From the NCBI GenBank assembly GCA_021789895.1, contig JAJYIU010000006.1, positions 62,001 through 126,000 of the forward strand: a DNA stretch of 64,000 nucleotides, read 5' to 3'. Source of the DNA: Acidobacteriota bacterium. Lineage in GTDB: Bacteria; Acidobacteriota; Terriglobia; Terriglobales; SCQP01. Of the stretch, positions 33,740-63,011 are shown one piece after another. Each line of letters begins with the position of its first letter. The first letter of the stretch is position 1. A program made the position numbers and the translations under genes. The notes below the pieces were generated by a model. That model did no database searches. It had not been told where the DNA came from and saw nothing but the letters and a program-made list of their open reading frames with translations.

Positions 33740-35017
33740 TCATTTTTTCGCGAACAGGGGCGCCTGGGCGGCCAGGTAGCCCACCTTGATCACCACCTGC
33801 TTGTCCAGCACCTGGTACTGCAGCGGAATCGGGTTGCAGCCGCCCCAAACGCCGACGGTGGAGACGTTGATGGGGGCATCGCAGTTGCGGCAGAACAGGA
33901 TTTGGCCGCGCTGGTAATAGCCCTTGCCGCCGCAGATCTGGCAGGCGTCGAGCGCCAGCGCCAAGTGCCCATTGGGCTTGCGCATGGCAAAGAAGCGCAC
34001 CGCGCCCTGCGCGGTGACGACCTGGTAGCGATGCAGATCGCCGTTCATGATCTGGCTGACCGGCACGGTGACGATGCCGGAATGGGCTTTCAAGACGGTG
34101 GCGGGCGAAAGGGCGCTCAGCGAACGCGCGTACACGTAATCGCCGGCGATCAGGACGAGGAAGACAAACGCGGCGCTGTAGGCCAGGCTCGACCAAATCT
34201 GGTCGCGGCGGGCGGCGGCGCGGGCGGCGCGGCGCTGCGCTCCGCTGGCGGCCGCAGCGCTTTCCGCCGCCGCGGCGGCGGCGGCGGCGCGGACGCGGCG
34301 GCGGTCGCGCAGGATCAGGATGCCGGCCAGACCCAGCACCACCACGAAGAAGAAAACGTCGTTGCGCACGATCGGGCCGACCAGCGCCATTTCCTTTTGC
34401 GAGGAGGGCAGCACGCCGGCCTCGGAAAGCTCATGCAGGCCAGTCACCAGCAACTGCACCGCGATAAACCAGAGGATGACGGTGGTGATGCGGAAGAAAC
34501 GGCGCAGGTCCACGCGGATGCTGCCCTTGACGAAGGCCACGCCGAAGACGACGGCCAGCACCAGGCCGATCACCGATCCCAGCCAGGCGAGCAGTTCCGA
34601 GGTATTGAGCGAGACCGCGGTGAGCATCATCACCGTCTCGACGCCTTCGCGCAGCACCATGAAGAAGACGAAGAGAAACAGTCCGGTGGCGGAGGCTTGC
34701 TGGCGGGTCAACTGCCCCAGCCGCTGCTCGATATCGGCACGCAGATGGCGGGCGGCCTTGCCCATCCAATACACCATGGTCAGGACGAAGACGCCGGCGA
34801 TGAGCAGCATGTAGCCTTCAAAGCGATCTTCGTTCCATTGCAGCCGGGCCATCAGGATGGCGCCCGCCAGGCTGAGGCCGAAGGCCGACAGCAGCGCGGC
34901 GTAAACCACGCGGTAGAGGTCGGTGCGGCCGATGCGGCGCAGGTAGGCGACGGCGATGGCCACCATCAAGGCCGCCTCGACGCCCTCGCGCAGGGTGATG
35001 ACCAGTTGTTCGATCAT
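33740..35017 (-). CDS. FTR1 iron permease fused to DUF2318 domain
   Basis: A 425-residue membrane protein. Residues 1-240 are the FTR1 high-affinity iron permease with two REGVE ferric-binding motifs (Arg10-Glu14 and Arg123-Glu127) and about seven transmembrane helices. A basic Ala/Arg linker (241-272) and one more helix join a C-terminal DUF2318 domain on the outside with two CxxC pairs (Cys359/362, Cys376/379) and Cys394, a likely Fe-S or metal site. In many bacteria FTR1 and DUF2318 are separate proteins. Start ATGA overlaps the prfB stop. The gene is followed by two FtsX-like permeases. Import of ferrous or ferric iron is the inferred role. Confidence 0.9.
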   Translation of the reverse strand: MIEQLVITLREGVEAALMVAIAVAYLRRIGRTDLYRVVYAALLSAFGLSLAGAILMARLQWNEDRFEGYMLLIAGVFVLTMVYWMGKAARHLRADIEQRLGQLTRQQASATGLFLFVFFMVLREGVETVMMLTAVSLNTSELLAWLGSVIGLVLAVVFGVAFVKGSIRVDLRRFFRITTVILWFIAVQLLVTGLHELSEAGVLPSSQKEMALVGPIVRNDVFFFVVVLGLAGILILRDRRRVRAAAAAAAAESAAAASGAQRRAARAAARRDQIWSSLAYSAAFVFLVLIAGDYVYARSLSALSPATVLKAHSGIVTVPVSQIMNGDLHRYQVVTAQGAVRFFAMRKPNGHLALALDACQICGGKGYYQRGQILFCRNCDAPINVSTVGVWGGCNPIPLQYQVLDKQVVIKVGYLAAQAPLFAKK

Positions 35018-36166
35018 GAGCCGGTTTCCTGGGACTGCGCCCGCGCCGATTCCGCCGCCAGCCGCTGGCGGCGGTGCCGGTCCACCAGCCAGGCGTGGAG
35101 CAGCGGATCCAGATCGCCATCGAGCACCCGCCCGACGTCGCCGATCTCCAGCTTGGTGCGCAGGTCCTTAACCATCTGATAGGGCTGGAGCACGTAAGAG
35201 CGGATCTGGCTGCCGAAATCAATATCCAGCTTGGAATCTTCGATCTTGCGGGCTTCGGCGCGGCGCTTGGCCAATTCATGCTCGTAGAGGCGCGAGCGGA
35301 GAATCTTCATGGCCACGGCGCGGTTCTTGTGCTGCGAGCGCTCGTTCTGGCATTGCACCACGATGTTGGTGGGCAGATGCACGATGCGCACCGCCGAGTC
35401 GGTCATGTTGACGTGCTGGCCGCCGCGGCCGCCGGCGCGGAAGGTGTCAATCCGCAAGTCCTCTTCCCGGATATTGACCTCGATGCGGTCATCAATTTCC
35501 GGGCTGACGAAGACGCTGGCGAAGGAGGTGTGGCGGCGCTTGGCCTGATCGAAGGGCGAGATGCGCACCAGGCGATGGACGCCGGTTTCCGACTGCAGCA
35601 GCCCATAGGCGTAATCGCCGGCGACGGTGATGGTGGCGGATTTGATGCCGGCTTCCTCGCCTTCCTGGCGGTCGTTGATGCTGGTGCTGAAACCGCGGCG
35701 CTCGGCCCAGCGCAGGTACATGCGCAGCAGCATGTCGGCCCAATCCTGGCTTTCGGTGCCGCCGGCGCCGGGATGGATGGTCAGGATGGCGTTGAGCGAG
35801 TCGTTTTCCTGGCCCAGCAGGGTTTCCAGCTCGATCCGCTCCAGGTCGGTGCGAAGCTGCGCCAGCTCGCGCCGCAGCTCGGCGCTGAACTCGGCATCGT
35901 CATTTTCCTGCAAGAGTTGCAGGTAGGCGGCCAGGTCATCCACCCGGCGGGCGAGGCCGCTTTCCGCGCCCAGCAGCGATTCCACCCGCTTGCGCTCGCG
36001 CGAGACCTGCAGCGAACGCTCGCTGTCGTTCCAAAAGCCGGGGCGGGAAATTTCCTGGTCGAGGCGGGTTAACTGCGCTTGCAGGCGGGGGGCGTCAAAG
36101 ATACACCCGTACGTCATGGGCTTTGGCCTGCAAGGCTTGAAAATCGCGTTCTAATTCTTCCGTCAT
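35014..36166 (-). CDS. prfB: Peptide chain release factor 2, with programmed +1 frameshift
   Basis: RF2 decodes UAA and UGA stops. It has the SPF recognition motif (VRISPFDQAKRRHTSF) and the GGQ hydrolysis motif (RAGGRGGQHVN). Translation starts at ATG 36166 and runs 23 codons (MTEELERDFQ to VRVYL) to CTT TGA C, then shifts +1 to read GAC GCC CCC and continues to 35014, giving 383 residues. The start overlaps the lnt stop (ATGA), and the prfB stop overlaps the ATG of the iron permease. An open frame from 36117 (MTYGC...) uses the shifted frame only and is not the real start. The upstream GGGTG lacks a full AGGGGG stimulator. Confidence 0.95.
36094..36100 (-). promoter_or_regulatory. Programmed +1 frameshift site CTTTGAC
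   Basis: On the minus strand the slippery CTT (36100-36098) is followed by in-frame TGA (36097-36095) and C. Slipping by one base reads GAC. This is the autoregulatory switch of prfB: when RF2 is scarce, TGA is read slowly and the ribosome shifts to make more RF2. A stimulatory G-rich stretch CGGGTG sits 3-4 bases before CTT, weaker than the AGGGGG of E. coli. Confidence 0.93.
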
Positions 36167-42351: not shown

Positions 42352-44928
42352 TTACCGGCGCCCGCCGGGGCGTGATGGCCGCCGGGCGCTGCTTTGCCGC
42401 ACCAGCGCCTCGGCTGCATTGGCTTCTACGATCCAACTGCTGGCGGCGGAAATAGTGTTTTCGTCTTCGAACCAGAGGAAACCGAAGTTGGCGATACATT
42501 CCGGAAAATCCGGCTTGATCACAATATAGCCGGGGATCATGCCGCCGGGGACGAAGGTATTGTCGGCGCGATTGCTGCCGTACGACTTCAACTTGGAAAC
42601 TTTGCCGATGCCGGAGATGTACGAAATGCTGTCCACCGGGTGCGTGCCAAGCAGGTAGTTGGCGGCGCGGAGGGTGTATTGCGGGCCGACCAGATCGGGG
42701 AAGGCCTGGTGCAGGAAATACATCTGCACGCCGAATTCCGCCACCATGCCGGAGCCGCCCCAATCGCCCATCGTGGGCGGAACGCCAAAGGGGGTGGCGG
42801 CAAGCCGGCGATTAAGCTGCGGCAGCCAGGCCTGCACCGCCGCCCGGAGGCGGGCGCGGTAGGCGGGGCCGAGATAGGGCAGGGCGCGGACGGCGGTCCA
42901 GCCGCCAAAGCCCAGGCGTTGCAGCATGACGGGAAATAGCGTTTCCACGCGCCGCTTATAGGGCTCCGCGCCGCGGGTGGCGATCATCAACTCCAGGGCG
43001 GCGCTCCAATCGGGCGCGCCGAAACGGCCGATGGCCTGGAAGCGGCTGGCGACGGGATGCGCTTTCTGCTCGTTCCACAGGCGGATCGCGGCCTGTAGGC
43101 ATTGTTTCGCCAGCGGGTCGTTCCAACCGCGCAGCACGCGGGAGGCCGAGGCCAGCGCCGCCGCCGCCGCGTACTCCATGGCGGAGTTGTAGTTTGTCCA
43201 GGCCCAGCGGTCGTCGGGCCGGCCGGAAAAGTTGCCGCGCACCTGGTTGGGGCCGAGCTTGGGATCGTAAATCCGGCCGTCGGTCTGGGAGGCGCCGTCG
43301 CCGATAAAGGTGTATCCCCGCAGCGTGGCCGACTGCAGGCCCATGAAGGTGTGGCCGACCGCATGGATCTGCGCCAGGGTTTGCAGAATGCCGTGCTCCA
43401 CCTGCTCGACCAGGTCGGGCACGCCGTCGGGACGGTGCATTTCGACCTTGCGGGCGCGCTCGTCCACCGTCAGCTCGTCCCATTTGTGATGGAAGGTCTC
43501 GTACGCCAGGGCCAGGTTCTGTATGGTCAGGTACTGGCTGAAGGCGTCGTTATCAAAGTCCCCTGCGTCGAACCAGCCGCCGGTATTCAAGCCGGGAATG
43601 TGCTGGCCGGGCCGGTAGGGCGAGTAAGTGTGCTTGCCCATCCAATAACCGTCGAAGTGTATCAGGTCGGGCGGCGCCTGCCGGGCGTCGTCCATGTACG
43701 CCAGGCCATGCCACAGGCGGTAGGCATCGCGCACTGAAACGTGATCCATCTGCACCGCCAGAAAGCCGTCGAGCGTGGTCTGCCAGGTGTGGTCGTAAAC
43801 GTCGCTGGCGATGGGAAAGACGCCGGAGCGAACGCCGGCGTACTCGATCACATAAAAGCCGGGCCGGCGCACCGGGGAAAAATCGAATTGGGCGTAGTCG
43901 TAACGCAGCCAGCGCCGGAGCGGGGAAATGGGCCCGGTAAATACCTGGCGGTAGGAGCCGTCTTCCATCAGCCGCAGCACCTGGGCGGCGCCCGGCGCCT
44001 GGAAGCGCGGATCGAGTTCGAGCACGGCGATTTTCGGAAAATCGGGAGCGTACCCGGCCTGGCTGTGGGCGATGGAGGGCGGCCGGGTCCAGCGGGGGAT
44101 GTAGTTCGGCCGGATGTGCCACACCACCGCGCCGCGGGTCTTGCCGGCGGGAATCAGCGTGCGCAGCACGAACCAGCCGTTTTGCGCCAGGTTGCGGCCG
44201 TCATAGAGCAGCAGCGGCCCGCGGGCGGAGGTGATGGTGATGCGATCGAGCGGGGCTTCCGGCGCCAGCGTGATCGTATGGCCGGCGGCGAAAGGCAGCG
44301 GCTGCGTATAACCCTCGGCGCGGTGCAGGTCCGCCGTGTAGTACATTTCGCCCTTGAGGTGGCGGCCGGGGACCTGGGTCATGCGTTCTTCGGGGCTGCG
44401 CGGGAAGACGCCGAAGCGGCGATGGTCCACGATGTAGTCTTTGTCCATGTAAATCGAGGGCAGAAACTCCAGATTAAAACCGGCTTGCCCCACCAGGCGG
44501 CGGGGCAGGGGCTGCGCCAGGTTGACACTGACGCGCACGCCACCCGGCTCGGCGCTAACTACCACGCGGTAGCGCAGCCGGTAGGCGGGATAGGCCAGTT
44601 CGGCTACCAGCCGGCCGCGCCGGGGCTCGGCCCGGCGCCGCCGCAGCAGCGGGATCGGGTCCCATTGTTCCGGGGTGGACAGCAGGCGCACCGAGCCGTT
44701 GGTGGCGATGCGCCGGTCGTAGAGGATGATTTGCATCGCCGCGTTCTTCTGGTCGAAGAAGACCGGGCTGTAGGTGCTGTTGTAAAGCATCACGTTAAAA
44801 CCCGGCGCGCGCAGATAGCCGCTGGCGGTCACCCGTGGCGCGGGCAAGGGCGGGCCAGCGGCGAAGGCGGCGGCGGCGAGCGAGGCGAGCAGGGGCAGCA
44901 GTTGGAGCAGGGAGGAGCGAGAGCGCAT
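42352..44928 (-). CDS. GH9-family secreted cellulase-like enzyme
   Basis: An 858-residue secreted protein. After a signal peptide (about 1-25), a beta-rich N-terminal region (about 30-290) of unknown family precedes a CelD_N Ig-like domain (SQAGYAPDFPKIAVLELDPR; VIEYAGVRSGVFPI) and the GH9 (alpha/alpha)6 barrel. Its nucleophilic water-activating aspartates are in GGWFDAGDFDNDAFSQY, and the C-terminal acid region shows FEDENTISAASSWIVEANA. GH9 enzymes are endoglucanases or cellobiohydrolases; xyloglucan is another possible target. ATG 44928 is preceded by a GAAAGG site; the frame open further upstream codes no signal peptide. Confidence 0.88.
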   Translation of the reverse strand: MRSRSSLLQLLPLLASLAAAAFAAGPPLPAPRVTASGYLRAPGFNVMLYNSTYSPVFFDQKNAAMQIILYDRRIATNGSVRLLSTPEQWDPIPLLRRRRAEPRRGRLVAELAYPAYRLRYRVVVSAEPGGVRVSVNLAQPLPRRLVGQAGFNLEFLPSIYMDKDYIVDHRRFGVFPRSPEERMTQVPGRHLKGEMYYTADLHRAEGYTQPLPFAAGHTITLAPEAPLDRITITSARGPLLLYDGRNLAQNGWFVLRTLIPAGKTRGAVVWHIRPNYIPRWTRPPSIAHSQAGYAPDFPKIAVLELDPRFQAPGAAQVLRLMEDGSYRQVFTGPISPLRRWLRYDYAQFDFSPVRRPGFYVIEYAGVRSGVFPIASDVYDHTWQTTLDGFLAVQMDHVSVRDAYRLWHGLAYMDDARQAPPDLIHFDGYWMGKHTYSPYRPGQHIPGLNTGGWFDAGDFDNDAFSQYLTIQNLALAYETFHHKWDELTVDERARKVEMHRPDGVPDLVEQVEHGILQTLAQIHAVGHTFMGLQSATLRGYTFIGDGASQTDGRIYDPKLGPNQVRGNFSGRPDDRWAWTNYNSAMEYAAAAALASASRVLRGWNDPLAKQCLQAAIRLWNEQKAHPVASRFQAIGRFGAPDWSAALELMIATRGAEPYKRRVETLFPVMLQRLGFGGWTAVRALPYLGPAYRARLRAAVQAWLPQLNRRLAATPFGVPPTMGDWGGSGMVAEFGVQMYFLHQAFPDLVGPQYTLRAANYLLGTHPVDSISYISGIGKVSKLKSYGSNRADNTFVPGGMIPGYIVIKPDFPECIANFGFLWFEDENTISAASSWIVEANAAEALVRQSSARRPSRPGGRR

Positions 44929-45276
44929 GCGCAGCCTTTCCCGGAAGAGTGGACAGCAGAAATCGTAGCCTGATTTCCGGCGCCGCGGTTGGAGCAAGAA
45001 GGAGGAGCGGCGCCGCGGGCGCGAATTGGCGGGCCGCCCTGTGACGCCGCTTACGCCTGAGACTGACCGAAGAAGTGAGCCGGTCACGCCGCCGGCGTGT
45101 CCGTGGCCGGGTTCGCTGGAATGCCGCGCAAGGCCGCGCCGACAAGATAATGATTGCATACACATTCGCAAGTGATTTAGGTCACAAACAACAACGCGCA
45201 CGGTCACTGCCGGGGCGCAGTCCCGCTGCCTAGACTCAGACTTTATGTATGTCCGCTATCACCAGATGAGGTGCTT
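44929..45276. other. Divergent promoter region, GH9 (-) and cytochrome-porin (+)
   Basis: About 348 bp, with no gene. It contains a CRP/FNR-like dyad (separate entry) and a TAGACT -10-like box at 45231-45236. The left part is GC-rich and carries no clear promoter for the minus gene. Confidence 0.6.
45171..45186 (+). promoter_or_regulatory. CRP/FNR-family binding site
   Basis: AGTGA-TTTAGG-TCACA matches the CRP consensus TGTGA-N6-TCACA at nine of ten fixed positions. Its centre is about 64 bp before the predicted transcript start near 45243 that would follow a TAGACT -10 box (45231-45236), which is a usual class I activator distance. It can serve the cytochrome-porin gene at 45277 and possibly the divergent GH9 gene. 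Confidence 0.6.
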
Positions 45277-46611
45277 ATGATTACTCACGCGATGCGTAGC
45301 GCGGGCCGGCTGCTGGCGGCGCTGCTGTTGGCCTCCCTGGCCGCCTGGGCGGTGCCCAGCTTTTCGCGCCAGACCGGCTTTCCCTGCTCCACCTGCCATA
45401 CCACCCCGCCCGAGCTGACCGCCTTCGGGCGCCAGTTCAAGCTCAACGGCTACACCATGACCAACATGAAAACGGTCTCGGCGCCGGCGCAAAAGAATCA
45501 GTCCGGCCTGCAGCTCGACAGCTTCCTGCCGCTGTCGGTGATGTTTCAGGTCTCCGATAGCGTCACCCGCAAAGCGCAGCCCGGCACCGACAACGCCAAC
45601 GCCGAGTTTCCCCAGCAGTTGAGCCTGTTCCTCGCCGGCGCCTGGTCGGCGCATGCCGGCAGCTTCATGCAGGTCACCTACGATACCCAGGGCGATCACT
45701 TCAGCATGGACAACACCGATATACGCTTCGCCAAGCAGGCCACGCTGGGCGGCAAGACCCTGGTGTACGGCCTGGATATGAACAACAACCCCACCGTCGA
45801 GGATCTGTGGAATTCGACCCCCGCCTGGGGTTTTCCCTACATCTCCTCCAATTCGGCCCCCGGGCCGATTGCCGGCGCGCTGCTTGACGGCGGGCTGGCG
45901 CAGGACGTGGGCGGCGTGGGGGTGTACGGGATGTACGACGACCATCTCTATCTTGACGTGACCGCGTACCGCTCGATGCATATTGGCGGGCCGCAGCCGC
46001 CCGACGGCCAGAACTTCGGCATTAACATCCACGGCGTCGCGCCCTATGGCCGCATCGCCTGGCAGCAGCAGATGGGCGACACCCTGTTCGAGATTGGCGC
46101 TTATGGCTTGTACCTGCGCAGCTATCCCAACGCGATCACCGGGCCGCGCGACACCTACCGCGACGTGGCGGCGGATTTCACCTTCGACCAGCAGTTGGGG
46201 GCCAACCAGTTGTCCATCTACGGCACGTACATCTACGAGCACGCGAATCTGGACGCGAGCCTGCTCGCCGGCTCGGTCGGCCAGAGCCTGCACAAGCTGA
46301 ACACCGCGCGCGCCAACGCCACTTATCACTGGGGCGACCGCTACGCCGCCACCGGCGGCCTCTTCGGCATCTCCGGGACGACCGACATCACGCTGTTCGC
46401 GCCCGGCGCGGTCGGCGGCAGCGCCAGCGGCAGCCCGCAAACCGACGGCTACATCCTGCAGTTCGCCTACTGGCCCTGGCAGAACATCAACCTCACCGCG
46501 CAGTACACCGGTTACTGGAAATTCAACGGCGGCTCGACCAACTACGACGGCAGCGGCCGCAATGCCGGCGACAACAACACCCTCTATCTGGCCGGCTGGT
46601 TCATCTTCTAA
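45277..46611 (+). CDS. Cytochrome c-porin fusion (Cyc2-like)
   Basis: A 444-residue protein with a signal peptide (about 6-26), one c-type haem motif CSTCH (Cys37, Cys40, His41) directly after it, the segment PPELTAFGRQFKLNGYTMT, and about 370 residues of amphipathic beta strands with a final aromatic residue (Phe), typical of an outer-membrane barrel. This layout (one haem inside a small barrel) is that of Cyc2, the Fe(II) oxidase of iron-oxidising bacteria, and of a wider family of unknown function. ATG 45277 follows a GATGAGG ribosome site; GTG 45271 is less likely. The CRP/FNR-like site upstream suggests redox or energy-state control. Confidence 0.8.
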   Translation: MITHAMRSAGRLLAALLLASLAAWAVPSFSRQTGFPCSTCHTTPPELTAFGRQFKLNGYTMTNMKTVSAPAQKNQSGLQLDSFLPLSVMFQVSDSVTRKAQPGTDNANAEFPQQLSLFLAGAWSAHAGSFMQVTYDTQGDHFSMDNTDIRFAKQATLGGKTLVYGLDMNNNPTVEDLWNSTPAWGFPYISSNSAPGPIAGALLDGGLAQDVGGVGVYGMYDDHLYLDVTAYRSMHIGGPQPPDGQNFGINIHGVAPYGRIAWQQQMGDTLFEIGAYGLYLRSYPNAITGPRDTYRDVAADFTFDQQLGANQLSIYGTYIYEHANLDASLLAGSVGQSLHKLNTARANATYHWGDRYAATGGLFGISGTTDITLFAPGAVGGSASGSPQTDGYILQFAYWPWQNINLTAQYTGYWKFNGGSTNYDGSGRNAGDNNTLYLAGWFIF

Positions 46612-46651: not shown

Positions 46652-46681
46652 CAGCGGGCCTGGCTGCGGTCAGGCCCGCTG
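46652..46681. terminator. Bidirectional hairpin terminator
   Basis: CAGCGGGCCTG (46652-46662) and CAGGCCCGCTG (46671-46681) form a perfect 11-bp stem with an eight-base loop. It lies between the convergent stops of the cytochrome-porin (46611) and kgd (46714). The T-tract on either side is weak. Confidence 0.75.
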
Positions 46682-46713: not shown

Positions 46714-49700
46714 CTAAGCGCCGGCCGATTCCAGCCGGGCAAAGGCGCGGGCGAGCAGCGCTTTCTGCTCGCGCTGGTGACGGCGCAGCGAGCCGGTGGC
46801 GGGGCTGGCGGATGCTTCCCGCCCGACGTAGCTCCAGCGCCGGCCGGAATTGAGCGCGGCGAGCCGCGGGGCGAGCGCGTTCCAGGCGCCCATGTTGGCC
46901 GGCTCCTCCTGCACCCAGACGAATTCTTTCGCCCGGCGGCAGGCGGCCAGCGCCGTTTCCAGCTCGCGCGCGGGCAGGGGATAGAGCTGTTCCAGGCGGA
47001 GAATCGCCGTGGCGGCGGCTTCGCCCCCCAGTTCGCGCCGGGTGGCGGCCAGCTCGTAATAAATTTTTCCGCTCGCGAGCAGCACCCGGTGGGCGGATTC
47101 CGGCGGCAGCGCGGGATCCGGCAGCACGGGATGGAATTTGCCGCCCGCCAGCGCTTCCAGCGGGGAAGCGACTTCGGGATGGCGCAGCAGGCTCTTGGGG
47201 GTGAGCAGCACCAGCGGCCGCCGGGCTTCAGGCGCGGCGGCGCCGCGCAGTCCCTGCCGCCGCAGCAGGTGAAAATATTGCGCCGCGGTGGTGCAGTTGG
47301 CGACCTGCAGATTGTCTTCCGCCGCAAGCTGGAGGAAGCGCTCCAGGCGGGCGCTGGAATGCTCCGGTCCCTGGCCCTCGTAGCCGTGCGGCAGAAACAG
47401 CGTCAGGCCGCTGCTGCGTCCCCACTTGGCGCGGGCGGGAGCGATGAACTGGTCAATGATCACCTCGGCGCCGTTGGCGAAATCGCCGAACTGCGCTTCC
47501 CAGATGACCAGCGCGCGCGGATGCTCCATCGAATAGCCGAACTCGAAGCCCAGCGCCGCTTCTTCCGACAGCAGGCTGTCGTGCAGCATAAACGGCGCCT
47601 GCGCCGTGGGCAGGTGGGTCAGCGGGATGTAGGGCGCGCCGCTTTCGTAATCATAGAGAATGGCGTGCCGCTGGCTGAAGGTGCCGCGGCCGGTATCCTG
47701 GCCGGAAATGCGGATCGGGACGCCGTCTTCGAGCAGGGTGGCGAAGGCCAGCGCCTCCGCCAGCGACCAATCTGCGCCCGGCGGCGAATCGAGCATCCGG
47801 GCGCGGCGCTCCAGCCAGGTCTTCAATTTGGGATGGAGATGGAAACCGGCCGGCAAGCGCGCCAGCGCCGGCGCGATTTTTTTCAGCCGCGGGGCGGGCA
47901 CGGCGGTTTCCACCGCCGGCGGGCGCGGCGTGCGGGCAGCGGGTTCGGCTGCGGCCGCGGCGGCGTGCGGCTCCGGCATGCGCTCGCGGTATTGCCGCAG
48001 CAGGCGTTCCTCTTCGTCTTCCGCCAGCAATCCGGCGCGCGCCAGTTGTTGGGCATACAGCGCGCGGGTGCCGGGGTGGCGCTCGATGCGGCGGTACAGT
48101 TCGGGATGGGTCAGGCTGGGGTCGTCGGCTTCGTTATGGCCGTGGCGGCGATAGCAGACCAGGTCCACCACCACGTCGCTTTGAAACTCGCTACGGAAGC
48201 CGAACCCGAGTTCGACCGCGCGCAACACCGCCTCGGGATCGTCTCCGTTGACGTGAAAAATCGGCGCCTGCACCATGCGCGCCACGTCGGTGCAATAGAG
48301 GCTGGAACGCGCTTCGGCGGGCGAGGTGGTGAAGCCGATGCGGTTGTTGACCACCAAGTGGATGGTGCCGCCGACTTCATATCCGGCCAACTGCGACAGG
48401 TTCAGGGTTTCGGCGACGACGCCCTGCCCGGCAAAAGCGGCGTCGCCATGGATCAACACCGGCAGCACCAGCCGTCCCTGGCGGTCGTCGAGCAGTTCCT
48501 GGCGGGCCCGGGCGCTGCCTTCCAGCACCGGGTCCACCGCTTCCAGATGGCTGGGATTAGGCGAAACGGTGATCCGCAGCGCATGGCCTCCGAAGGTGAC
48601 CACGCGGCCCTCGGCGCCGATGTGGTACTTGACGTCGCCGGAGCCCTCGACGCTTTCCGGATCCATGTCTTCGAACTTGGAAACGATCTCGGCCATGGTC
48701 TTGCCGACAATATTGACCAGCAAGTTCAGGCGGCCACGGTGGGCCATGCCGATTGCAATCTCGCGCGCGCCGACGCCGCCGGCCAGGCTGAGCAGGTGAT
48801 CGAGCGCGGGGATCAGGCTTTCGGCGCCTTCCAGCGAAAACCGCTTGTGGCCGATATAGCGCGCGTGCAACAGGCGCTCGAACACCTCGGCCGCGGTCAG
48901 GCGATCGAGAATGCGGCGGCGCAGCGGCTCCGGCAGCGGCCAATGCGCACGCGTAGGCTCCAGCCGCTCCTGCAGCCAGCGCCGGCGCTCCAGTTGCTGG
49001 ATATGCATGTACTCGCAGGCCAGCGTGCCGCAATAGGCCGCCCGCGCCAGATCCAGAATCTCGCGCAGCGTGTGCAACTGGTGCAGCTCGGTTTCGCCCT
49101 GGGAGTGGAACAGCGGCGAAAGGAAGCGGCGGTCCAGGTCCCAGAGCGTCAGCCCGTAATGCGCGGCGTCGAGTTCGGGATGCTCGGCGTTTTGCGGCCC
49201 GAGCGGGTCGAGCTGGGCCAGCAGGTGGCCGCGCACGCGGTAGGCGTGCGCGAGTTGAAAAACGGCCGCCTGTTTTCGCGCCGGCTCGGCTTCCGCCGCC
49301 GTTCCGGCCAGCGACAGCCCGGGGGCGGCATCGCGGGTCCAGGTGGCGGGCTTATAGGGCACCTGGGCTTCGCGAAAAATGCGTTCGTAAAAATCGTATT
49401 CGCCCAGCAGCAGCGCGTGAATATAGGCCAGGAAGATTCCCGACTCCGCTCCCTGGATGATGCGGTGATCGTAGGTGCAGGTCAGGGTCATGGTTTTGCC
49501 CACGCCCAGCGCGTGCAGGGTATCTTCCGGGATGCCTTCGAAGCCGCTGGGATAATCCAGCGCCCCGGCGGCGAGAATCGCGCCCTGGCCGTTCATCAGG
49601 CGCGGCGCCGAGGCGCGCGTGCCCAGCGTGCCGGGATTGGTCAAGCTGAAGCTGGCGCCCTGCAAATCGTCGGGCGCGAGCTGGCCGGCGCGAGCGCCCC

Positions 49701-50373
49701 GAATCAGCCGGTCGGCGGCGTCCAGGAAGTCGGGAAAAGCGAAGCGCTCGGCCTGTTTCAACACCGGCACCAGCAGGCTGCGGCCGTTGCGCGTTTCCAC
49801 GTCCACGGCCAGGCCCAGATGGATGTGGGCATGTTCCAGGCGCGCCGGCCGGCCGTCCTGCTGCAGGTAGGCGCGGTTCAGCGCGGGATTGGCTTCGAGC
49901 GCCCGCACCAGCGCCCAGGCCAGCATATGGGTGAGCGATACCTTGCGCCCGCGCTCCGCCAGTTGCGCGTTCAGAAAGCGGCGGTTTTCCTCCGCCAGCC
50001 GCATGGGAATCGAGCGTTGCGAGCTGGCGATGGGAACCGCCAGGCTGGCCTGCATGTTGAGGGCGATGCGTCCGGCGGCGCCTTGTAACGGCTGCACCCG
50101 GTCTTCCGCCGCGAGCGCGGGTGGGGCAGCGGCAGGCGGCGGCAGGGCCACGCCGGCCGCGGACGCCGGCGCCGGGGGAGGGGAAGCGGCGGCGGCGCGA
50201 TATCCATTGCCGCCCTGCAATACCGACTGGAAAATATCGCGCCAGGTAGCCGAAACCGCCTGCGGATTACTCAAATAGGCCTGGTAAAGTTCTTCCGCAT
50301 AGCCTTCGTTGGGGCCCAGGGAAGCAAGAAAATCGCGCACCCGCTGATCGCTTTCGCGACTCGTTTCCGCCAT
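46714..50373 (-). CDS. kgd: Multifunctional 2-oxoglutarate decarboxylase/dehydrogenase E1 (kgd type)
   Basis: A 1219-residue enzyme of the type found in Mycobacterium (Kgd/OdhA): a short E1o N-terminus (FLASLGPNEGYAEELYQAYL), a Pro/Ala linker (60-90), an E2o-like catalytic domain with TYDHRIIQGAESGIF (about 305-320), and the ThDP-dependent E1o domain (MAHRGRLNLLVNI, VLIHGDAAFAGQGV, RRHGHNEADDPS, SGQDTGRGTFSQRH). No lipoyl domain is present. It decarboxylates 2-oxoglutarate, linking the TCA cycle and probably working with a separate lipoylated E2. Single gene on the minus strand; a terminator follows. Confidence 0.94.
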   Translation of the reverse strand: MAETSRESDQRVRDFLASLGPNEGYAEELYQAYLSNPQAVSATWRDIFQSVLQGGNGYRAAAASPPPAPASAAGVALPPPAAAPPALAAEDRVQPLQGAAGRIALNMQASLAVPIASSQRSIPMRLAEENRRFLNAQLAERGRKVSLTHMLAWALVRALEANPALNRAYLQQDGRPARLEHAHIHLGLAVDVETRNGRSLLVPVLKQAERFAFPDFLDAADRLIRGARAGQLAPDDLQGASFSLTNPGTLGTRASAPRLMNGQGAILAAGALDYPSGFEGIPEDTLHALGVGKTMTLTCTYDHRIIQGAESGIFLAYIHALLLGEYDFYERIFREAQVPYKPATWTRDAAPGLSLAGTAAEAEPARKQAAVFQLAHAYRVRGHLLAQLDPLGPQNAEHPELDAAHYGLTLWDLDRRFLSPLFHSQGETELHQLHTLREILDLARAAYCGTLACEYMHIQQLERRRWLQERLEPTRAHWPLPEPLRRRILDRLTAAEVFERLLHARYIGHKRFSLEGAESLIPALDHLLSLAGGVGAREIAIGMAHRGRLNLLVNIVGKTMAEIVSKFEDMDPESVEGSGDVKYHIGAEGRVVTFGGHALRITVSPNPSHLEAVDPVLEGSARARQELLDDRQGRLVLPVLIHGDAAFAGQGVVAETLNLSQLAGYEVGGTIHLVVNNRIGFTTSPAEARSSLYCTDVARMVQAPIFHVNGDDPEAVLRAVELGFGFRSEFQSDVVVDLVCYRRHGHNEADDPSLTHPELYRRIERHPGTRALYAQQLARAGLLAEDEEERLLRQYRERMPEPHAAAAAAEPAARTPRPPAVETAVPAPRLKKIAPALARLPAGFHLHPKLKTWLERRARMLDSPPGADWSLAEALAFATLLEDGVPIRISGQDTGRGTFSQRHAILYDYESGAPYIPLTHLPTAQAPFMLHDSLLSEEAALGFEFGYSMEHPRALVIWEAQFGDFANGAEVIIDQFIAPARAKWGRSSGLTLFLPHGYEGQGPEHSSARLERFLQLAAEDNLQVANCTTAAQYFHLLRRQGLRGAAAPEARRPLVLLTPKSLLRHPEVASPLEALAGGKFHPVLPDPALPPESAHRVLLASGKIYYELAATRRELGGEAAATAILRLEQLYPLPARELETALAACRRAKEFVWVQEEPANMGAWNALAPRLAALNSGRRWSYVGREASASPATGSLRRHQREQKALLARAFARLESAGA

Positions 50374-62165: not shown

Positions 62166-62828
62166 TTACGCCACCTTTTTCCGCTCAGGCGATTTGCCCT
62201 TCTCCAAGTCCTTGGGAGCGGGCAGCGTCGAGCCGGAAATGTACCGTTCGGTGGCGCGCGTCGCCGGATCCACGCCCTCGGCCTCGCCGGTGCGCGGGTT
62301 GACCAGGAAGAGCAGGTCGGACATTTCTTCCGCGTGTTGTTCTTCTTCTTGCAACAGCTCTTCCAGCAGCTCGCGCGTGGTGTTGTCGTGGAAGCCGAAG
62401 TAGCGGATCATTTCGCCGTAAACCTCGATCACCACCCGCTCCGCCACCAGGTCTTCGCGGATCATATCCGCCAGCGATTCGCCTTCGGCATACTGGGAAA
62501 CGCTGCGGGTCTGCAGCCCCTCCGGATTCAGGTTGGGCGCGCCCCCCAATTGCTTGATGCGCACTGCCAGACGGTCGGCATGCCGCTGCTCGTCGTTGGC
62601 GTGCTCGAGAAACTCCTTCGCGGCGCTTTCGCCATGCAGCCCGCTGGCCATGTAATAGTGATGGCGATAACGCAGGACGCAGACGATTTCCGAGGCCAGC
62701 GCCGTGTTCAACAGATCACACGCCTGGTGCGGATCGCCTTGGTATTGTTCGATCACCGCGCCTTGTTCGATGTGCTTGCGGGCGCGCTCCCGGATTGCTT
62801 CGACGTCGGAAAGAAATTCGCCTGCCAT
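62166..62828 (-). CDS. Ferritin-like diiron protein (bacterioferritin type)
   Basis: A 220-residue four-helix bundle protein with the ferroxidase residues: first Glu in [39 protein letters not shown] with Exx[16 protein letters not shown] and [16 protein letters not shown] with the second ExxH. It is likely an iron storage or iron-detoxifying protein; the C-terminal 40 residues are charged and not part of the bundle. ATG 62828 has GGGGGAGA upstream. The longer frame (62864) is less likely. Confidence 0.88.
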
Positions 62829-63011
62829 GGGTCTCCCCCGATCTGGGTTTGGGAATGCATGCATTTAGAAAACCCGGCCGGGTCTGCAGTTGCCCGAAAG
62901 CGGCGCCCGCCGCCCCGCCAAATTTCACCGGCCGGGGAAAATTGGAAAATCTGTGTTAAAGTAAGAATTTACCTGGCTCCCTCGTGGAGCCGAGAGGGAG
63001 TGTCGCGCACG

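Follow-up and report, generated by a model that had tools for sequence, protein, structure and literature searches.

An acidobacterial Cyc2-family haem porin with a probable link to quinone-linked complex III and a Crp/Fnr-type promoter box

The 64,000-nucleotide stretch of DNA that we analysed (the window) encodes a Cyc2-family cytochrome-porin, and our analysis suggests that this outer-membrane haem porin serves as a conduit for electrons between iron and a quinone-linked complex III under Crp/Fnr-type, low-oxygen control, a reading to which we assign a probability of roughly 0.68. What is new here is that cyc2 is linked in operons to complex III genes in Acidobacteriota and shares a promoter box with them. 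Cyc2 homologues are known in many phyla and Cyc572 of Leptospirillum has been linked to acidobacterial homologues (PMC10654088), and in the open-access papers that we searched neither the acidobacterial operons of cyc2 with complex III nor the common promoter box had been reported. The features of the locus are collected in Table 1.

Table 1 Features of the cyc2 locus in the window.
Feature	Position	Strand	Details and basis
Cyc2-family cytochrome-porin gene (Cyc2A)	45277..46611	+	444 aa; ORF, family alignment, tree
Crp/Fnr-like palindrome AGTGATTTAGGTCACA	45171..45186	+	9/10 consensus bases, 91 bp before ATG of cyc2
Signal peptide, residues 1-25	45277..45351	+	Predicted, Sec-type, cut between AWA and VP; sequence inspection, helix 2-22 in AlphaFold model
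Cyc2 motif AVPSFSRQT, residues 25-33	45349..45375	+	Consensus AXPXFAR[QK][TY], A->S at one position (PMC8406198)
Haem-binding CSTCH, residues 37-41	45385..45399	+	Predicted; sequence and family alignment
PxL motif PEL, residues 45-47	45409..45417	+	4 residues past CxxCH; definition of PMC8406198
16-stranded beta-barrel, residues 86-443 (358 residues)	45532..46605	+	AlphaFold2
Long loop, residues 170-210 (41 residues)	45784..45906	+	Between strands 5 and 6, position of porin constriction loop L3; model and alignment
Strong hairpin between convergent genes	46652..46681	.	Possible terminator; fold
Divergent neighbour, glycoside hydrolase family 9 (GH9)	42355..44928	-	Unrelated; Pfam
Convergent neighbour, 2-oxoglutarate dehydrogenase E1/E2 fusion (OGDH)	46714..50373	-	Unrelated; Pfam

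An earlier note on this DNA had described the open frame as a Cyc2-like cytochrome-porin, and both its coordinates and its description were right. The gene starts with ATG, its codon-position GC (0.57/0.48/0.90) is as expected for a real gene at 65% GC, and relatives are encoded in 82 of 297 acidobacterial genomes, the close full-length type in only a handful. Neither a sigma-70 promoter nor a T-run terminator was called at its ends by our scan; the hairpin downstream is without a canonical T run, and the terminator scan made no call there. No complex III gene adjoins window cyc2, which is flanked by the GH9 and OGDH genes according to Pfam. An iron permease and a ferritin-like gene had also been pointed out in the window, at a distance from cyc2. 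The permease was identified by Pfam as FTR1 with an FtrD-like domain in one ORF (33743-35164, minus strand), while the ferritin-like ORF (62166-62864, minus strand) was recognised by eye only. Neither adjoins cyc2, and FTR1 lies 10 kb off and unlinked. These genes were dropped as support for the role of Cyc2, on which they carry no information.

Cyc2 has been defined by AXPXFAR[Q/K][T/Y] before CxxCH, PXL after it, a 16-strand porin and a total length of at least 365 aa (Keffer et al. 2021, PMC8406198). The 444-residue window protein has a single CxxCH near its signal peptide, for which cleavage is predicted by inspection between MITHAMRSAGRLLAALLLASLAAWA and VPSF, and it carries a near match to the Cyc2 motif in which all positions but one fit, together with PEL. 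The single CxxCH had been noted from the outset, and CxxCH is invariant across the 46-sequence family alignment, as are P45 and L47 (46/46). The segment near the haem that the earlier note had called characteristic is PPELTAFGRQFKLNGYTMT at residues 44-62, and the segment VPSFSRQTGFPCSTCHTTPPELTAFGRQFKLNGY forms the conserved part. Among the Met and His residues only H41 is invariant in the 46 sequences, and no other is conserved well enough to serve as sixth haem ligand. Met89 was dismissed as a ligand common to the family, since only 83% of the sequences keep it and W, L, Q, F or I takes its place in 8/46 relatives. Neither Pfam nor NCBIfam has a matching model for the window protein or for its paralogue in the same genome, and the sequence search of the PDB returned no solved relative of the window protein.

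The AlphaFold2 model built from the 46-sequence alignment (mean pLDDT 91.1, pTM 0.86) has exactly 16 barrel strands, the number for which a structure prediction had been proposed as a check, and its 358-residue barrel agrees with the earlier estimate of some 370 residues. All PDB fold matches named for the model, OmpU, Omp32, OprP and OprO, are 16-strand porins. Within the long loop N170, P172, D176, W178 and P187 are invariant, and D296, D300, E321 and R150 are likewise invariant and face the pore by hydrophobicity estimate.

Relatives are encoded on 563 stretches of GTDB contigs, of which the closest 80 loci were compared further. The top tier of these (50-71%) is almost entirely acidobacterial and includes the isolate Acidipila rosea (L060), and the next tier (43-49%) comes from Bacteroidota, Gemmatimonadota and Pseudomonadota. 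A second Cyc2, 62% identical to the window protein, is encoded in the same genome (G000:C26, L002:1501-2844, minus strand) and carries AVPSFARQT, an exact Cyc2 motif; its gene sits behind a cupredoxin/CarboxypepD_reg gene. Both paralogue types also occur in MAG ZJ1.bin67 (L051, L054). The Cluster 2 reference was chosen by synteny, not by name (genome G562, Cyc2 at L174:12463-13848, minus strand): this cyc2 lies upstream of confirmed genes for COX1, CtaA, a rusticyanin-family cupredoxin and Sco, a layout that matches the published rus operon, whose Cyc2 belongs to Cluster 2, and it was therefore taken as Cluster 2. The window protein aligns with it over the full length (37.8% identity, 447 columns), whereas probable Cluster 1 sequences of the CHFQxFP type align over only ~110 residues of the N-terminal part. 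In a maximum-likelihood tree of 102 rows, the window protein, its paralogue and the rus-operon Cyc2 form one clade (100/99), within which same-type Acidobacteriota form one subclade (100/99). The protein thus does not fall away from all Cyc2 clades, an outcome that had been raised as a possible objection. The CHFQ and FARKY types, which we infer to be Clusters 1 and 3, fall outside this clade. The window protein therefore appears closest to Cluster 2, by an assignment that runs through the synteny-chosen reference and not through a named one. Taken together, motif, 16-strand barrel, full-length homology to the rus-operon protein and phylogeny support the membership in the Cyc2 family well, and the architecture first proposed from the letters of the DNA is upheld.

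The wider clade extends to plasmids. Plasmid pACRY03 of Acidiphilium cryptum JF-5 (L035, NC_009469.1, 1381-2748) encodes a Cyc2-type protein annotated 'hypothetical protein', and the gene adjoins c-type cytochrome and transposase genes. The plasmid deposited as Acidithiobacillus ferrooxidans YQ-N3 (L034) has the same gene layout as pACRY03 and was therefore not taken as an At. ferrooxidans reference. Cyc2-type genes were also observed on large plasmids of Caballeronia, Paraburkholderia, Polymorphobacter, Methylocystis and Ideonella (L033, L036-L039), with c-type cytochrome genes nearby in each and a HiPIP in Caballeronia. In gemmatimonadal loci (L092, L100, L122-L129), several Cyc2 open frames reach far 5' of the motif, beside which no clear signal peptide is seen; this may reflect alternative starts or an extra N-terminal part.

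Complex III genes accompany cyc2 at many acidobacterial loci. Rieske and cytochrome b genes lie on the same strand within 8 kb of cyc2 in 29 of 47 acidobacterial loci, and in A. rosea cyc2 is followed by the Rieske gene and then by a cytochrome b gene with four fused cytochrome c domains. A Qrc/ACIII-type complex stands beside cyc2 in 3/47 loci, and one further locus ends after the first gene of the complex; two of these four (L054, L055) carry the cyc2 genes closest to that of the window (76%). A cupredoxin/CarboxypepD_reg-type protein is encoded near cyc2 in 16/47. The cyc2-linked acidobacterial operons contain complex III and no cytochrome c oxidase, and complex III genes are rare beside cyc2 in 39 loci of other phyla. 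The genome that carries the window has a counterpart Qrc/ACIII operon (C46), whose molybdopterin subunit is 69% identical. It also has an operon of the bc type (C70) and two more sets of ACIII genes, and aa3-type-like oxidase genes lie beside a second ACIII. Its Qrc/ACIII copy scores 73, 172 and 223 bits for QrcA, QrcB and QrcC against NCBI equivalog cut-offs of 180, 440 and 400, so that by these scores the cyc2-linked complex appears to be related to Qrc and not a member of it. A search of the same genome found no RuBisCO and no rusticyanin, and the iron-oxidation layout of the rus operon (cyc2, cyc1, coxBACD, rusticyanin) is not present at the window gene.

The promoter box provides a second line of evidence. 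By chance, 0.4 boxes with at most one mismatch are expected in the window, and its single copy is not significant; only the family-wide and genome-wide enrichment is surprising. In 18 of 47 acidobacterial loci the 350 bp upstream of cyc2 contain GTGA-N6-TCAC, with a density of 1.22 per kb in these upstream regions compared with 0.031 per kb in the remaining DNA of the loci (~40-fold), and TGTGA-N6-TCACA with at most one mismatch is found at 16 loci against 0.33 in shuffles, in counts for which the related loci are not independent and the sites spread over several subclades. Several of the remaining hits precede the first gene of the cyc2 operon. The canonical Fnr site TTGATN4ATCAA was tried and set aside, with only 2 copies in all 47 loci, and the box is therefore of the TGTGA-N6-TCACA type. 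In the window's own genome, GTGAYN4RTCAC occurs at 18 sites in 3.75 Mb, compared with 2 for the reversed pattern. Intergenic boxes precede cyc2, the Qrc/ACIII operon, the bc operon and cydA, as well as genes for a 5-haem protein, 7-haem and 9-haem cytochromes and malic enzyme, and most other sites fall inside genes; no box precedes the cyc2 paralogue at L002:1501-2844. A. rosea has six perfect sites in 4.2 Mb (control 1); of these, one precedes the cyc2 operon, a second lies 27 bp ahead of cydA and a third just downstream of cydB. A Crp/Fnr-family regulator gene in the window's genome (L220:5326-6069) is a candidate reader of the box. The five-haem membrane protein with the box is followed by an ASPIC/UnbV protein, with a Crp/Fnr regulator a few kb off (L205/L220, G000:C77). 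The nine-haem cytochrome that carries the box is DmsE/MtrA-like, below the cut-off (L218:8253-9341, minus strand), and an eleven-CxxCH cytochrome is encoded on the same contig (L218:2255-3484, plus strand, G000:C39).

From these data we propose the following mechanism. The 16-strand barrel would sit in the outer membrane, with the single-haem segment at its N-terminus plugging the periplasmic mouth. Dissolved iron would enter the pore, whose wall bears conserved acidic residues, and swap one electron with the haem, as family precedent suggests. Periplasmic c-type cytochromes and, in relatives, cupredoxins would carry the electron to a quinone-linked, complex III-type enzyme, either of the bc type (Rieske, cytochrome b, fused c haems) or of the Qrc/ACIII type. 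Complex III is proposed as the inner partner because its genes are linked to cyc2 in relatives, and the shared box and the nearest relatives suggest the same link in the window's genome. There the scattered genes would be controlled together with cytochrome bd through the common Crp/Fnr-type box and, because the cyc2 system and cytochrome bd have it in common, would probably be switched on at low oxygen. One protein could run both ways.

Two directions of flow are compatible with this mechanism. We lean slightly, and with considerable reserve, to the one in which quinol electrons at low oxygen would exit by way of bc or Qrc/ACIII, then Cyc2, and reach soluble Fe(III), because the co-regulated oxidase draws on quinol and not on cytochrome c, the host seems heterotrophic, RuBisCO is absent and acidobacterial heterotrophs reduce Fe(III) under oxygen limitation, in micro-aerobic conditions (PMC8790237). 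Operons with complex III and without cytochrome c oxidase, and a box common to cyc2, cydA and multihaem cytochromes, point the same way. In addition, a role as terminal ferric reductase has been proposed for Cyc2 when At. ferrooxidans grows anaerobically (PMC8790237), and JF-5, which carries a Cyc2 of the wider clade, is a known Fe(III) reducer. On the other side, Fe(III) reduction is not known as the job of any Cyc2, the reader of the box and its signal are only putative, and related Qrc enzymes reduce menaquinone.

A dedicated Fe(II) oxidase, the role suggested in the earlier note, is a somewhat less probable version of the same mechanism. Electrons would pass from Fe(II) through the haem and periplasmic carriers to cytochrome c oxidase, and complex III would run in reverse and reduce quinone. 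All three Cyc2 proteins tested oxidise Fe(II) (PMC8406198), the closest functional relative by synteny is the rus-operon Cyc2, a part in reverse electron transport has been suggested for bc1 and ACIII of Fe(II) oxidisers (PMC7029218), and the genome does hold the aa3-type-like oxidase genes beside its second ACIII. However, the lack of RuBisCO leaves little need for reverse electron flow, rusticyanin is missing, the oxidase that shares the box is bd, a quinol oxidase, and we found no reports of Fe(II) oxidation in Acidobacteriaceae. Thus the Cyc2 assignment behind that suggestion holds, and Fe(II) oxidation as its default meaning is weakened by the complex III linkage, the cyd box, the missing RuBisCO and the JF-5 relative. 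These results suggest that Fe(III) reduction is no less plausible than Fe(II) oxidation.

An improbable alternative is a Cyc2-like conduit for a non-iron substrate, such as humic substances, other metals or solid donors, or a porin with another role for its haem. Family members on plasmids of Caballeronia, Polymorphobacter and Methylocystis, organisms not known to cycle iron, would fit it, and Keffer et al. allow other functions (PMC8406198), but the acidic pore residues are conserved and the protein is homologous to iron oxidases. That it is an ordinary porin with a chance CxxCH, as its barrel fold like that of general porins might suggest, is refuted by conservation: in 46 relatives CxxCH and PxL do not vary, nor do key positions of the motif around them.

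The presence of cyc2 is commonly taken to mark iron oxidation. If Cyc2 in an acidobacterial branch is coupled to complex III, and its gene shares a promoter box with that of a low-oxygen quinol oxidase, the marker does not indicate Fe(II) oxidation by default, and a concrete candidate emerges for the mechanism by which heterotrophic acidophiles reduce Fe(III). More speculatively, and we would sooner bet against this than on it, acidobacterial Cyc2 could be one end of an envelope-spanning quinol:iron oxidoreductase, together with bc with fused c haems or Qrc/ACIII, that is co-controlled with cytochrome bd by a Crp/Fnr-type regulator and acts mainly as a ferric reductase at low oxygen, a Cyc2 used backwards. 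Since the cultured type strain A. rosea DSM 103428 carries cyc2-Rieske-cytochrome b, the question of direction is directly testable.

Among known systems, the rus-operon Cyc2 (Cluster 2, Acidithiobacillus ferrooxidans type) resembles the window protein in signal peptide, motif and predicted single haem and is homologous to it along the whole barrel, with the L3 loop and a C-terminal NYDGxGRNASDNNT stretch conserved; the window protein is ~38% identical to it, is encoded outside a rus operon in a genome without rusticyanin, and has relatives linked to complex III, not to an aa3 oxidase. Cyc2PV-1 of Mariprofundus ferrooxydans (Cluster 1) shares the fused one-haem cytochrome and 16-strand porin with an OprP/OprO-like fold, although likely Cluster 1 sequences, not identified by name, align only N-terminally (~110 residues). 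Cyt572 of Leptospirillum (Cluster 3) is alike in its Cyc2-like cytochrome-porin architecture, by description (PMC8406198). Next to cyc2, the nearest relatives encode a complex with subunits of the pentahaem c, molybdopterin-like, FeS and NrfD kinds, plus ActD in L053, as in QrcABCD/alternative complex III, whereas the copy in the window's genome scores below the Qrc cut-offs. In MtrAB/MtoAB/PioAB, electrons likewise cross the outer membrane through a porin, but there a 26-strand barrel is paired with a separate decahaem cytochrome, whereas the window protein has one haem, predicted from its CxxCH, fused to a 16-strand barrel.
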